Source: a virus
Virus record (IMG/VR): IMGVR_UViG_3300023178_001795
Location: 1 to 26,614 of that record
Direction: 5' to 3' (one strand)
Length of the DNA: 26,614 nucleotides
The position numbers were made by a program, and so were the translations under genes. This document shows positions 17,350-22,460 of this stretch, in pieces (position 1 is the stretch's first letter; the number at the start of each line of letters is the position of its first letter). The notes beneath the pieces were generated by a model. That model was given only the letters and a program-made list of their open reading frames with translations. It searched no databases and was not told where the DNA came from.

Positions 17350-17736
17350 TTAACCTCTCGATAGCACAATCTTCATTGCTTTTTGTAAGTCAGTTGGTGC
17401 AGCATCTGGAAACTTCTTCTTCAAATGTCTAAGTGTACCTTGTGTACCATACCTTCTTAATACTTTATTTACTTCCTCGACATAAAGATCCATATCATCA
17501 CCCATTCCGTGCTTGATTGTATCCCATGCTTTGGAAAGCCAATTTTCCTCATTAGTTTTCTTTTTCGCCATGTTTGTAGCAATAGCATACACAGCACCTT
17601 CTGGGTCCATGCCTTTGTCTTTAGCCCATTTGGCTATGTTAGATTTTGCTTTAGGTTTATCTAAAATTTTGTCAGCAGTCTTGTGTGCTTTTTTAAGTGT
17701 TTTTTTATCTAATTCTGTGATTTGAAAAACACGCAT
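17350..17736 (-). CDS. Basic protein with (I)TE leader, unknown function
   Basis: 128 residues. Starts MRVFQITELDKKTLKKAHK: the leader MRVFQITE ends in Ile-Thr-Glu, the form cut by the T4 prohead protease. Then AKWAKDKGMDPEGAVYAIATNMAKKK (36-61), a segment that occurs in marine-phage proteins from memory, and a helical C-terminus RYGTQGTLRHLKKKFPDAAPTDLQKAM. Basic overall, fit for DNA contact. Function unknown. Confidence 0.65.
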   Translation of the reverse strand: MRVFQITELDKKTLKKAHKTADKILDKPKAKSNIAKWAKDKGMDPEGAVYAIATNMAKKKTNEENWLSKAWDTIKHGMGDDMDLYVEEVNKVLRRYGTQGTLRHLKKKFPDAAPTDLQKAMKIVLSRG

Positions 17737-18257: not shown

Positions 18258-18265
18258 TATTTATG
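18258..18265 (-). promoter_or_regulatory. T4-like late promoter candidate
   Basis: Minus-strand CATAAATA (18265-18258) followed by CTATATAC, close to the T4 late form TATAAATACTATT. A start near 18251 gives a 12-base leader with GGAG before the ATG at 18239. Best of the late-type candidates in the window. Confidence 0.5.
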
Positions 18266-18689
18266 CGTTTTTAGTTGTTTTTTTCTTCTTCTTTGGCTTT
18301 GTTGTAGTAGTATTAGCACGTTGTATAGTGCCTGGTCCACCATTTACAAATCCATTTCCGCCACCTGCGTATGCTCCTGCTATAGCAGAAGCTGTAGTTT
18401 CGGTGGTTTTTCTAAACTTGTTCTTAAATTTTGGTTTTCCTGCTAAACTTTTCTTGATGTCTTTTTGTACTGTTTTGGGATCAATACCTGCAGCTCTGCT
18501 TAAACTATCAGCATCAGCTTGTGCTTTGTTTACTTTATCTTGCATGCCTTTGCCTACAATATTCATTCTGTCCACCATACCAGGGTCAGTTGTTTTACTC
18601 TTTAACAGTGCAGCTTGTTGTTGTTTTTTTAGAGCAGCCTGTTTACCAGTCATTGTAGGTGCATCTTCTGTAATTTCATAAACTTTCAT
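18261..18689 (-). CDS. Basic low-complexity protein with ITE leader
   Basis: 142 residues. Starts MKVYEITEDAPTMTG: MKVYEITE followed by Asp-Ala looks much like the capsid-targeting leaders of T4 internal proteins, cut after (L/I)-x-E. The rest is Lys/Gln/Ala-rich, with a Gly-rich stretch (AGAYAGGGNGFVNGG) and a basic tail TKPKKKKKTTKNA. No enzyme motif. A small DNA-associated internal head protein is my preferred reading, by analogy only. Confidence 0.65.
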   Translation of the reverse strand: MKVYEITEDAPTMTGKQAALKKQQQAALLKSKTTDPGMVDRMNIVGKGMQDKVNKAQADADSLSRAAGIDPKTVQKDIKKSLAGKPKFKNKFRKTTETTASAIAGAYAGGGNGFVNGGPGTIQRANTTTTKPKKKKKTTKNA

Positions 18690-18694
18690 AATAA

Positions 18695-18702
18695 TATTTA
18701 TT
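18695..18702 (-). promoter_or_regulatory. Possible T4-like late promoter element
   Basis: AATAAATA on the minus strand (18702-18695), 7 of 8 matches, 6 bases before the ATG of the 142-residue gene. AAGGA lies upstream of the element, so any transcript starting here would lack that ribosome site. Confidence 0.3.
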
Positions 18703-20329
18703 CCTTACCGCTTTTCATATTAGCACACCAGTGATACATTTTACCACGTTCGCCTGAATACTTCTTTGCTTTGCGTCTAAGTTCGCTTACACTACCCTTA
18801 CAACTTGCACCACTACGCTTTACACGCCCTGGTCTGCTTTTGCCTTTTTCCTTACCGTCAGCAAAGTTTTCTGCAAGTCCTAATTCCTTTTGTGGCAAAC
18901 TGTTAAGTGTTCCTATGATGTGTGTAGTCTTACCCGGAACCCAATCCGGAGCATCCGTATAATATCCACCTATTTTATTATAAACTTGTTTTACCTTACT
19001 CATTGGCGTAATAAATGGTATTTGATTTACACCGAATTGTTTTGCCGTAAAGTCAATGGCATCATTACCTACTATAGGCATAATGTGTGCATCACCTTCA
19101 CCGCTTTTACCAGGAAACTTTTTAATATCTTTTGGTGGAGCAAGCCAAATAACTTTGGGTTCGGGAAGTTTATTTGATTTCATAAATTCTACAAACTTTT
19201 TAGTAGATTCTTTGCAATCGTCAGCCTCATCGTAAAATTTACTTTTTAAAAATTCATCTGATAGGTTTTTACCGTCAGCAAAGTTTTCTAATTTAGTCAA
19301 TGAGCGTTCATTAGCAGTAGCGTTTTCTGCATCTCTATCTTTAACGTGTTGTCTATTTTTTGCTTCTAATTGATCTCTAATACTTTTTAACAATGCACCA
19401 ATGTCTGTTTCTCTTGTAATTTTATATTTTCTTATTAATAAGTCTCTAAATGCATCTTCACGTTGACTAAAACCTCTGCCATATAATAATGCTTCTATTG
19501 CATCTGCATCATTCATTAAATGCTTACCGTCGTAGTTTTCTAATCCTTTGTATAGAGGATCATAATGTATATGTCTGTTTGCAGTTTTTCCTCTAATTAT
19601 TGTTTCTTCTACAGGCTCTTGCATATGTTGTTTTATATTTTTTGCTGTTCTTTCAAACTTGTGATCTTTGTGTTTGAATCCTATTCCACCTGCTGCTTCC
19701 CACTTAGCAATATTTTGTCCATAATCATCAATTAGTATGTTAGAAGTACCATCTTCTGTAGTAGCGTATTTTGCTTTGTCGTGTGTAATAATAACTTGTT
19801 TAGGTAAAAAGAAATTTAAGTTCTTTTTGATCCATTCACGCTTGTGCGGTTCTGAATTAGGATCATCTGGTAGTGGTGAACTTAATATATTGTATTCACC
19901 TTTTACATCTTTTATAAGTGCAAGTAAATTTTTTGCATTGTCAGTTAGAGGCAAATTTAACCAAAAATCTTCAGTGTCTCTTATCTTTTGTAGTGCTGGA
20001 GAAATATCATCAATCTTAGTCCAATGATCTTTGCCCATCAGTTTAGCCCAATCACCAAAAAAGTCTGCAAGCACACCGTCCATGTCAACATATATTGTAC
20101 TAACACTTGAAAGTTCCTGTGCTTCGTTTTTATTACGGCCTTCGGTTAGACCTAAATTGAATAGCACATTGGTTGATTTACCTTTAACTTTTTTGCTTAG
20201 TGTAGGTGGACGACCGTCCTTGTCTACAGTGTTGCCAAACTTTTTTGCTTGTCGTGGAATTTCATTTGTACTAACATCTGGAGTTGTGTTTACACCTTTT
20301 ACTATTCTGCCCCACTCGTAAAATCTCAT
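18698..20329 (-). CDS. Modular protein: HAD 5'(3')-nucleotidase-like domain plus repeated linker and basic C-terminal module
   Basis: 543 residues. Residues 78-220 form a HAD domain like 5'(3')-deoxyribonucleotidases: IYVDMDGVLADFFGDW (D82, D84), LPLTDNAKNLLALI, NILSSPLPDD, Lys near 185, and ILIDDYGQNIAKW (D201, D202). After it come modules separated by ENYDGK (264-269), ENFADGK (348-354) and ENFADGK (487-493). The last module GRVKRSGASCKGSVSELRRK to MYHWCANMKSG (501-541) is basic with two Cys. The nucleotidase could dephosphorylate dNMPs or be a remnant. Leader has no ITE motif, but LTE at 61-63 precedes the HAD domain. Role in virion is inference. Confidence 0.75.
   Translation of the reverse strand: MRFYEWGRIVKGVNTTPDVSTNEIPRQAKKFGNTVDKDGRPPTLSKKVKGKSTNVLFNLGLTEGRNKNEAQELSSVSTIYVDMDGVLADFFGDWAKLMGKDHWTKIDDISPALQKIRDTEDFWLNLPLTDNAKNLLALIKDVKGEYNILSSPLPDDPNSEPHKREWIKKNLNFFLPKQVIITHDKAKYATTEDGTSNILIDDYGQNIAKWEAAGGIGFKHKDHKFERTAKNIKQHMQEPVEETIIRGKTANRHIHYDPLYKGLENYDGKHLMNDADAIEALLYGRGFSQREDAFRDLLIRKYKITRETDIGALLKSIRDQLEAKNRQHVKDRDAENATANERSLTKLENFADGKNLSDEFLKSKFYDEADDCKESTKKFVEFMKSNKLPEPKVIWLAPPKDIKKFPGKSGEGDAHIMPIVGNDAIDFTAKQFGVNQIPFITPMSKVKQVYNKIGGYYTDAPDWVPGKTTHIIGTLNSLPQKELGLAENFADGKEKGKSRPGRVKRSGASCKGSVSELRRKAKKYSGERGKMYHWCANMKSGKE
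18853..18872 (-). repeat. Direct repeat copy 1 encoding the ENFADGK linker
   Basis: The 20 bases TACCGTCAGCAAAGTTTTCT (plus-strand reading) are identical to those at 19270-19289 within the same gene. They encode the NFADGK linker. A partial third copy with a deletion (ENYDGK) lies at about 19525-19541. Confidence 0.85.
19270..19289 (-). repeat. Direct repeat copy 2 encoding the ENFADGK linker
   Basis: Identical in all 20 bases to 18853-18872, about 417 bases apart. Identity at third codon positions suggests recent duplication, recombination or shared origin of the module borders. Confidence 0.85.
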
Positions 20330-20541
20330 TTTTTACGTCCTCTAAATTGTACAGGACCTGTCATGTAAGGTTTTGAAAACCAAAGTTTAAACCAATCTGG
20401 ATCACCTGGTTTAAGACCCATCTTCTTTTCTTTTTTCTTTAGTGCTGCTGCGGTAATACTGGGATTTTCATCAACTTTGTATTCGGTGTAGCCTTTGAAT
20501 TCATTTATACCTGCAAGACGTTTGAGAGTATCAATGTCCAT
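20326..20541 (-). CDS. Small basic protein with LAGINE leader
   Basis: 71 residues: MDIDTLKRLAGINEFKGYTEY, then KKKEKKMGLKPGDPDWFKLWF and a tail ending RGRKK. Ile-Asn-Glu at 12-14 fits an (I/L)-x-E site. The form LAGI-x-E-x-KGY-x-EY followed by KPG-x-x-WF-x-LWF is, from memory, common in marine T4-like phages with no known function. Coupled by overlap to genes on both sides. Confidence 0.7.
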   Translation of the reverse strand: MDIDTLKRLAGINEFKGYTEYKVDENPSITAAALKKKEKKMGLKPGDPDWFKLWFSKPYMTGPVQFRGRKK

Positions 20542-21560
20542 TAATTATTCCTTACAGTTATTCCGCCACCAGTAGCAGTAGCACTTTGTTTGGAAGTATC
20601 CGCAGCCATATTCATTGCTGTTCCTAACATAATTTGTAAGTCAGCATTTTGTTTTCTAAATAATAGGTATTCTGGAGATCTAAGTGCCGCTGCACCTTTG
20701 ATGCCTTGTTTTGCTAGTGCATCTCTATATACTTGACGCAACTCTTGTTTCTTTTGTTCTGCAGCTTGAGAAATTATTTCATAATTGGCATGACTTACTC
20801 CACCTAATTTTTTATATAAAGCTTCGGCGTCTGCTTTTGCGTTGCGTTTTACTGCCAACACTTTTTCAACATCACCACCGTATTTTGTGTCGTATTGAAC
20901 TACAGGAATATCTGCACTGGTCAAGTTTTCTACTATAGATTCTTCTGTATTTCCAAGAGCTTGATCTAAAAGTTTGACAGCCTCATTATGGCCTGAACCA
21001 TACATAAGTTCTGCGGCTTTATGTTTTTCTTCTTCACTCATACTAGGCCAAGTATTGCGTAATTCTGTAGCACTACGGATCTGCATTCCAGAAAAGTCAA
21101 AGTTTATTGTTGGACCATAAGCAATATGTGCATGTGCTTCTGCAGGTTGTAATTGTTCTTTGCCTTTATAACTTATAAGATAGCCAGGCATTCCATCGCT
21201 TTTGCGAATTTGATCCGGTAATGGATGTGTTCCTTGATCTTTTTCACTTCTAATAAAAACTAAACTATTTTTTGTAGGATCACCTATTATGTCTGTATAA
21301 GAAAGTGCATTAAACGGAGATTTAATTTGAATAAATTTATCTGCAGGTACGCCTGCCATACTAGCAAGTTTTTGTTTTATATCAAAAGGAAAAGGTCTAG
21401 TTGAAGTATCGTTTGTTGCTGCTACATATACATTTGATTTTCCGAATTCTTTAGTAGCCCAATCGTAAAGACTTTTGTGTCCTGGATGAAAAGGATGAAA
21501 TCCTCCAGGCATCACAGCAACAACATTTAATTTTTCTTCAAATAGTTGTCTTAGTCTCAC
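20541..21560 (-). CDS. HIGH-type nucleotidyltransferase with short leader and helical tail
   Basis: 339 residues. The enzyme domain starts within 12 residues of the N-terminus: VVAVMPGGFHPFHPGHKSLYDW with HxGH (H25-H28), VYVAATNDTSTRPFPF, and GMQIRSATELRN as the C-terminal signature near residue 160. The fold is that of cytidylyl/adenylyltransferases (NMN or pantetheine-phosphate type); substrate unknown. Leader MRLRQLFEE has Leu-Phe-Glu, a fit to the prohead protease consensus. Residues 210-339 are a separate helical, Ala/Gln-rich region without enzyme motif, perhaps for virion binding. Confidence 0.75.
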   Translation of the reverse strand: MRLRQLFEEKLNVVAVMPGGFHPFHPGHKSLYDWATKEFGKSNVYVAATNDTSTRPFPFDIKQKLASMAGVPADKFIQIKSPFNALSYTDIIGDPTKNSLVFIRSEKDQGTHPLPDQIRKSDGMPGYLISYKGKEQLQPAEAHAHIAYGPTINFDFSGMQIRSATELRNTWPSMSEEEKHKAAELMYGSGHNEAVKLLDQALGNTEESIVENLTSADIPVVQYDTKYGGDVEKVLAVKRNAKADAEALYKKLGGVSHANYEIISQAAEQKKQELRQVYRDALAKQGIKGAAALRSPEYLLFRKQNADLQIMLGTAMNMAADTSKQSATATGGGITVRNN

Positions 21561-21893: not shown

Positions 21894-22460
21894 TTACCAC
21901 TTCCTACATGACCAATAACGTGCCTTATGTCTTGGACCTGGATTATCGCAGTTGTGCCTTGCACGGAAACTTCTGCGTCTTGCAGGATTTGATTTTTTAA
22001 TCTTCATATTAGGATCACCAAAGTTTACCTTTACTACATTGCCCTTTGGATTCTTAACATATACTTTAAACTTCTTAACATCGCCCTGCATTGGCTTGCC
22101 AAGTTTAACTTTACGTCCTTGGTATTCGGCTTCATCTACAACATCATCTTCGTTGAACCAAAGTATGCCGTAGTCTGTATGGAAATCATCTACATCATCA
22201 TATGTAATTTCATCTATTTCTTCTAAATCATCAGAAGTGATATCTATATCAAAATCTTCATAACCCATTTCAAACATGTAGTTTGCTAACTTTTCTGCAT
22301 AACCATTAGCTTCCTCTTCTGACAAATTTCTTGTCAAAGGAATATGATACATTACTGCATCTTGATTAGTTTCAAATATATCATAACCAGGAAAAATGCT
22401 CTCATCAAGCTCTTTTACATCATCTGTTTTTTCCATTGTAATTCTTACAAAGTGTTCCAT
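21894..22460 (-). CDS. Two-part phage protein: acidic N-terminus, basic Cys/Arg C-terminus
   Basis: 188 residues. Residues 1-105 are strongly acidic (EDFDIDITSDDLEEIDEITYDD). Residues 108-188 form a distinct basic module: YQGRKVKLGKPMQGDVKKF, KVYVKNPKGNVVKVNFGDP, then NPARRRSFRARHNCDNPGP and RHKARYWSCRKW with two Cys. This C-terminal module occurs, from memory, in many marine phages, sometimes fused to other domains. GGAG lies before ATG. Function unknown; the charge split suggests autoinhibition or binding to nucleic acid in the head. Confidence 0.75.
   Translation of the reverse strand: MEHFVRITMEKTDDVKELDESIFPGYDIFETNQDAVMYHIPLTRNLSEEEANGYAEKLANYMFEMGYEDFDIDITSDDLEEIDEITYDDVDDFHTDYGILWFNEDDVVDEAEYQGRKVKLGKPMQGDVKKFKVYVKNPKGNVVKVNFGDPNMKIKKSNPARRRSFRARHNCDNPGPRHKARYWSCRKW

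Follow-up and report, generated by a model that had tools for sequence, protein, structure and literature searches.

The prohead protease of bacteriophage T4, gp21, cuts after L/I-x-E, and in the T4 capsid-targeting leader, which is about 10 residues long, positions 8 and 10 determine processing (PMC9026906). The internal proteins of T4 are highly diverse, with only the CTS conserved (PMC3012670). The locus described here resembles T4 IPI-III and Alt in having a short N-terminal leader ending in (L/I)xE and a cluster of diverse cargo genes that share the leader only, and in that gp21 and gp23 occur in related contigs (four of the four with head genes); cleavage in the virion and ejection would hold here by analogy. 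In T4, each cargo has one gene and one leader (Alt is also trimmed C-terminally), whereas here several modules lie in one chain with sites between them, and a single-copy basic C-terminal module (CTM) closes it. Polyvalent proteins also combine several unrelated enzymatic domains per chain in mosaic architectures and are proposed to enter with the DNA; the part of that account available to us assigns their processing to built-in metallopeptidase or assemblin-like domains and makes no mention of prohead-protease sites separating shuffled domains (Iyer et al., 2017, PMC5512222). It is also the only work in the literature searched in which "prohead protease" and "polyprotein" appear together. The Dar proteins of phage P1 are likewise host-directed and carried in the capsid by means of an N-terminal signal, and DarA is believed to be processed; they are separate proteins, and repeated cleavage sites between exchangeable modules are not described in the accessible part of the source (PMC9024508). 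Finally, a cultured relative, Pelagibacter phage HTVC008M, has a cytidyltransferase, an SFRARHNC protein and an NT5C in one cluster (gp130-gp143), as here, but its nucleotidase is single-domain and the CTM is absent from its genome.

The window, by which we mean the whole stretch of DNA analyzed, is an IMG/VR virus record of 26,614 bases. It is a piece of a T4-like phage genome that contains a family B DNA polymerase (nearest to that of Sinorhizobium phage Phosso, 50% identity), ClpA/B-like and DnaJ-like genes and a minus-strand cluster of small genes, all names except that of the polymerase having been assigned by eye. Being a fragment, it includes neither gp21 nor head genes. From comparison with its relatives, we consider it likely that the modular protein listed first in Table 1 is a capsid-cargo polyprotein that is cut by the prohead protease and whose modules are exchanged at the cut sites. 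Of its modules (N-module, nucleotidase, helical, papain-like and CTM), several also exist elsewhere as genes in their own right, behind a short leader that ends in (L/I/V)xE, or are combined in a different order, with (L/I/V/M)xE immediately preceding the module start. The HAD domain recognized in an earlier note was recovered by both Pfam (NT5C, E 2.8e-7, 31 bits against a cut-off of 24.8) and PHROG (5'-3' deoxyribonucleotidase, E 3e-23), and its DxDG motif is intact (DMDGVLAD, residues 82-89). Module 3 is likely a cysteine hydrolase or deamidase, as its predicted structure and alignment suggest: a Cys, a His and an Asp are invariant in five aligned sequences, and its AlphaFold model (pLDDT 74) compares with papain-like and protein-deamidase folds at VIA Z scores of at most 8.4, close to what unmatched models commonly reach. 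Foldseek gave no significant match for this model and reported none in the PDB for that of the CTM; neither module found anything convincing in the PDB by sequence, and neither they nor the helical module had a PHROG match. The protein has at least two disparate domains in one polypeptide (NT5C, the putative papain-like module and others). Polyvalent proteins have hallmark domains such as ArdC-N, zincin peptidase and DdrB-type ParB; Pfam found none in the window protein, and in some relatives HEIVHH-type and GHHRYDA ParB-like motifs, possibly of this kind, were seen by eye.

Table 1. Features of the modular gene and its neighbours in the window (arrows mark predicted cuts or module borders).
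Feature	Position	Strand	Basis
Modular protein, 543 aa; proposed capsid-cargo polyprotein	18698..20329	-	Single ORF, translation, relatives
N-module, residues 1-63 (GRIVKGVNTT...NLGLTE), with short leader MRFYEW	20141..20329	-	Relatives
5'(3')-deoxyribonucleotidase-like HAD module (NT5C), residues 64-242	19604..20140	-	Pfam NT5C, phrog_2643
Helical module, residues 243-348	19286..19603	-	Own gene with own leader in L018/L019/L202/L203
Module 3, residues 349-487, putative papain-like cysteine hydrolase or deamidase	18869..19285	-	Alignment, AlphaFold, fold comparison; own gene in L194/L195/L197/L199
CTM, residues 488-543 and stop, net charge about +12	18698..18868	-	Relatives, structure prediction
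Predicted cleavage site LTE↓G, after E63	20141..20149	-	Hydrophobic P3 and P1 Glu in 41/41 relatives
Predicted cleavage site VEE↓T, after E242	19604..19612	-	Stand-alone MKIYEITE↓TIIRGKTAN in L202; DNA similarity to many loci stops here
Predicted cleavage site LAE↓N, after E487	18869..18877	-	P3 enrichment at CTM border
C-terminal 21-bp repeat copy (ENFADGK copy 2)	18852..18872	-	Exact match
Internal 21-bp repeat copy (ENFADGK copy 1); preceding KLE does not fit the cut-site consensus	19269..19289	-	Exact match; left breakpoint of L195 similarity
ENYDGK, internal to helical module	19523..19540	-	Conserved within stand-alone relatives
RSLTK, probably left behind by deletion of an RxLTKGEEK...LLE↓NFADGK module	19292..19306	-	Comparison with L010/L012/L018; inference
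Neighbour gene, T4-CTS-like leader MKVYEITE	18261..18689	-	ORF list
Neighbour gene, T4-CTS-like leader MRVFQITE	17350..17736	-	ORF list; same module in-chain in L046/L052
Neighbour gene, leader MDIDTLKRLAGINE	20326..20541	-	ORF list; G004 ortholog MDIERLKQLAGINE
Cytidylyltransferase-like neighbour, GTG start, leader MRLRQLFE, internal SIVE↓NLTSADIP module	20541..21560	-	ORF list, Pfam

Among the relatives of the window gene (search sets of 80 loci, 80 loci and 120 stretches), ENFADGK almost always leads into xKGKSRPGRVKRSGASCxGSVTxLRxKAKKYSGEKGKMYHWCANMKSG, the CTM, a very conserved 56-residue protein without a family name that is identified here. It is predicted to form a three-helix bundle with the first 11 residues disordered, and the copies compared are 73-89% identical to that of the window. 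With its ENFADGK edge it occurs in more than 580 IMG/VR stretches, it is single-copy in 17 of 17 long contigs, and 158 of 171 copies are C-terminal in their protein. A tblastn search of 50,697 phage records returned none, a profile search did not find it in three Kyanoviridae genome records (HTVC008M, Melnitz and C48C1), and among 84,980 species genomes it appeared in two contigs, both metagenome-assembled. The contigs L219 and L220, which carry CTM genes with leader-type neighbours, are binned to Pelagibacter and Neomarinimicrobiota MAGs and are probably phage contigs; the chain in L220 has 764 codons and many modules. Upstream of the CTM lie nucleotidases, HxGH nucleotidyltransferases, ParB-like GHHRYDA segments, HExxH segments (motifs recognized by eye) and many unknown modules. 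In other loci the CTM stands alone behind a leader, as in MRIFELVE↓NFADGK (L067), MLVSEITE↓NFADGK (L048), MRAAEFVTE↓NFADGK (L114) and MKIVEITE↓NFADGK (L159). The peptide ENFADGK, of which we found no mention in the literature searched, occurs 151 times in the related loci scanned, above chance. It had been taken for a generic linker but belongs to a single module, whose N-terminal edge it invariably forms. Internal copies exist in about seven places overall, often with a few further CTM residues before a different module begins, and look like truncated remains of this edge. The idea that its copies border unrelated modules holds in part: their neighbours do differ, but the internal copy looks like a remnant of the CTM edge and the supposed third, shortened copy, ENYDGK, is unrelated and no border at all. 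The latter is part of the helical module itself and stays within it in stand-alone relatives (GLENYDGKHLMN in L018/L200, GLENFNGKLLMN in L202), so we rejected it; the true HAD/helical border is PVEE↓TIIRGK at 19604.

The residues preceding these borders carry a cut-site signal. We collected 92 contexts upstream of ENFADGK, unrelated by a 50% identity filter, and used 1,781 other Glu residues of the same proteins as background. P3, two residues ahead of the border Glu, is occupied by L, I, V or M in 71 of the 92 (77%, against 22.7% in the background, p = 3e-28), although the independence of the contexts is only approximate since distantly related modules may persist among them. P2 (12%) and P4 (13%) showed no enrichment. 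Fused CTM forms alone gave 63 of 83, and P1 is Glu in all 123 distinct contexts. The result was reproduced in a held-out set, obtained by a separate search from which contexts resembling the first set had been removed: 25 of 38 contexts have one of these four residues at P3 (66%, p = 2e-8), or 32 if F and Y are included, and P1 is Glu in 38 of 38. The signal also precedes other shared modules (45 of 74 contexts, p = 2e-12). At the end of the N-module, [LIVM]xE is present in 41 of 41 relatives despite a change in length (GMTE, GMVKE), and the leaders of this module end in hxE in 29 of 30 distinct cases, with L, I, V, M or F at P3. There are departures: about a quarter of the CTM borders are off-motif, as are most borders at SYTR (0 of 4 on motif), GALIPNP (2 of 8) and EAAGVG (4 of 12); in the window protein, the usual LNE site is lost from the leader MRFYEW, and P3 is not hydrophobic at the internal border KLE↓NFADGK. 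At the sequence level, the border motif matches the (L/I)xE cut site of gp21, with V and M commoner at P3 than in the L/I stated for T4. Cutting at LAE↓NFADGK, which the earlier note had raised as a possibility, therefore gains strong statistical support as a prediction from the P3 enrichment and its replication. The ends of BLASTP segments (HSP-based) were also tried as unbiased module boundaries; they were too noisy and were dropped as independent support.

The CTM could alternatively be a C-terminal tag that stays uncut and carries its partner to the DNA or capsid, with ENFADGK as the start of a flexible tail. Its basic charge (+12), strong conservation, C-terminal position in most copies and predicted disorder in the first 11 residues would all fit such a role. 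However, stand-alone CTM genes have a leader and no cargo to be tagged, a single copy per genome would allow for only one tagged protein, and neither the hydrophobic P3 in unrelated partners nor the same motif before other modules would be explained. We regard a tag as unlikely.

If a prohead protease is the processing enzyme, as we propose, it should be encoded by these phages. gp21 (PF03420, peptidase S77) is present in 4 of the 15 relatives' records; in G004 its homologue lies at 121590-122228. Its absence from the other 11 was rejected as a counter-argument, since those contigs have no gp23 either and are thus fragments without the head-gene region; all four contigs that reach the head genes encode gp21, and gp23 is found in exactly those four. 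The major capsid proteins of two of these genomes have LAE↓NATAG (G004) and LKE↓NATAG (G009) near the N-terminus, plausibly the maturation site of the capsid protein. About 12 kb separate the CTM gene of G007 from gp21 and the capsid gene. Genes starting with a leader of the pattern M[KR]...[LIVMF]xE are concentrated near the nucleotidase and CTM, both in G004 (6 of 10 against 3 of 138 elsewhere, p = 1e-6) and in G009 (7 of 15 against 3 of 190, p = 3e-7); both p-values are optimistic, as the regions were chosen after viewing the gene lists. In positions 23972-34187 of G009 there is a row of genes with near-identical leaders (MRASEFIVE, MKITEFVTE, MRAQEFLKE, MRASEFIAE and MRAREFIGE), together with a gene at 33744 that appears Dps-like by eye.

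Comparison of loci indicates how the chain was assembled. In G004, whose gene order resembles that of the window, the nucleotidase chain lacks the CTM, which is a gene of its own two genes downstream. The helical module is a separate gene in L018 and in L202, where it begins MKIYEITE↓TIIRGKTANRHVHYDP; the PVEE↓TIIRGKTANRHIHYDP of the window is the same joint with the site kept. Module 3 and the CTM together form a gene in L195 (MRIFEVVE↓NFADGKNLPDEF...GLAE↓NFADGKVKGKSRPG), where module 3 is 96% identical to that of the window. L067 and L078 have nearly the leader of L195 without module 3, and a single ENFADGK in place of the two that L195 has at a distance of 417 bases; L195 and L194 have module 3 between ENFADGK copies, and L067 and L078 show the same gene lacking it. 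On these comparisons, the window protein joins parts encoded as separate genes elsewhere. The similarity between the window and L195 sets in precisely at the codon for E in the first ENFADGK, and DNA similarity to other loci mostly stops at 18871-18873 and near 19604. The RSLTK ahead of the internal ENFADGK resembles the start of a module that ends in LLE↓NFADGK in L010 and L012, and the non-consensus KLE may be a deletion scar. Module swapping, as the earlier note had suggested, is supported in that almost every relative has different modules next to ENFADGK and the border recurs in stand-alone genes; we looked among the relatives for a uniform module order and for the lack of any second protein with the linker, and found neither.

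Whether the border DNA itself is a recombination site is a separate matter. Both copies of the repeat noted earlier are present, with exact identity over 21 bases (TTACCGTCAGCAAAGTTTTCT) rather than 20, and over the seven codons of ENFADGK they differ at 1 of 21 bases. We rejected this near-identity as evidence by itself since it is ordinary for ENFADGK: when C-terminal copies from different loci are paired at random, 25% of the pairs are identical or one base apart. In one alternative to our reading, the ENFADGK coding DNA would be kept as a hotspot for module exchange and the protein sequence would be a by-product. The presence of module 3 between repeats in some related genes and its absence from others, the breakpoints at the E codon and the use of the commonest 21-mer in most distinct internal copies would agree with this. 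Nevertheless, the motif is encoded by 44 distinct 21-mers, with synonymous diversity similar to the rest of the CTM and lower only at E, N and G, and the P3 signal in non-homologous upstream sequence would be left unexplained; we find this alternative very unlikely. Recombination at the border has direct support from the presence or absence of module 3 and the breakpoint, but a dedicated DNA site is not supported, as conservation does not go much beyond what the codons require. Also very unlikely is that genes in a hypervariable region simply fused through the loss of stop codons and that the resulting chain works uncut as a polyvalent-type protein. Neighbouring genes do fuse frequently here (compare G004 with the window order), and polyvalent proteins with disparate domains, some entering cells uncut, are known (PMC5512222); against this, hxE is kept at a junction where the leader is lost (ITE to VEE at ↓TIIRGK) and N-module ends of varying length keep a hydrophobic P3 (GMTE/GMVKE).

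Unrelated small proteins in one chain, with a gp21-type signal at their borders, suggest a shuffled enzyme set that is loaded into the capsid and then cut apart. In the capsid-cargo polyprotein we favor, a gp21-type prohead protease would cut after the border Glu inside the prohead and release the modules as separate mature proteins; these would be packaged along with the DNA and, like T4 Alt and the internal proteins, would probably enter the host. Homologous recombination at ENFADGK and other module edges, to which the breakpoints point, would add, remove and swap modules, and the internal ENFADGK copies would be its scars. If this is right, module borders are cut sites, and sequence alone would suffice to predict candidate virion cargo in T4-like phages from marine and freshwater habitats that are uncultured, among it many unknown domains that probably serve host takeover or anti-defence; phages would also have a simple recombination route to acquire capsid cargo. 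A wider reading, to which we give about an even chance, is that in widespread uncultured T4-like phages the prohead protease acts as a polyprotein processor and the cargo consists of freely exchangeable cassettes bounded by cut sites, so that a new effector could be loaded by insertion into an existing chain without a leader of its own, and the single-copy CTM would be an undescribed capsid protein riding any available chain.

Some minor observations concern the modules and the genes around them. The Ser codon of GASC in the CTM is AGT in 135 of 141 copies, while other Ser codons are freely used elsewhere in the module. The tail of the stand-alone helical protein in L018 (6219-6680), IGE↓TATAGGTSAGAVA, resembles the major capsid protein (L209, L206; G004/G009) directly behind its presumed cut site, LAE↓NATAGATSAGNVA, at about 10 of 12 positions. 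Next to the modular gene, the product of 18261-18689 ends in TETTASAIAGAYAGGGNGFVNGGPGTIQRA...KKKKK, apparently a variant of the tail that the helical protein has where it stands alone in L018/L019, and the second module of the cytidylyltransferase-like protein (NLTSADIPVVQYD...) is shared with the nucleotidase chain of L017. Further along the window, the product of 21894-22460 has a basic Cys-rich tail, RRRSFRARHNCDNPGPRHKARYWSCRKW, that is also found in Pelagibacter, Roseobacter, Flavobacterium and Methylophilales phages.
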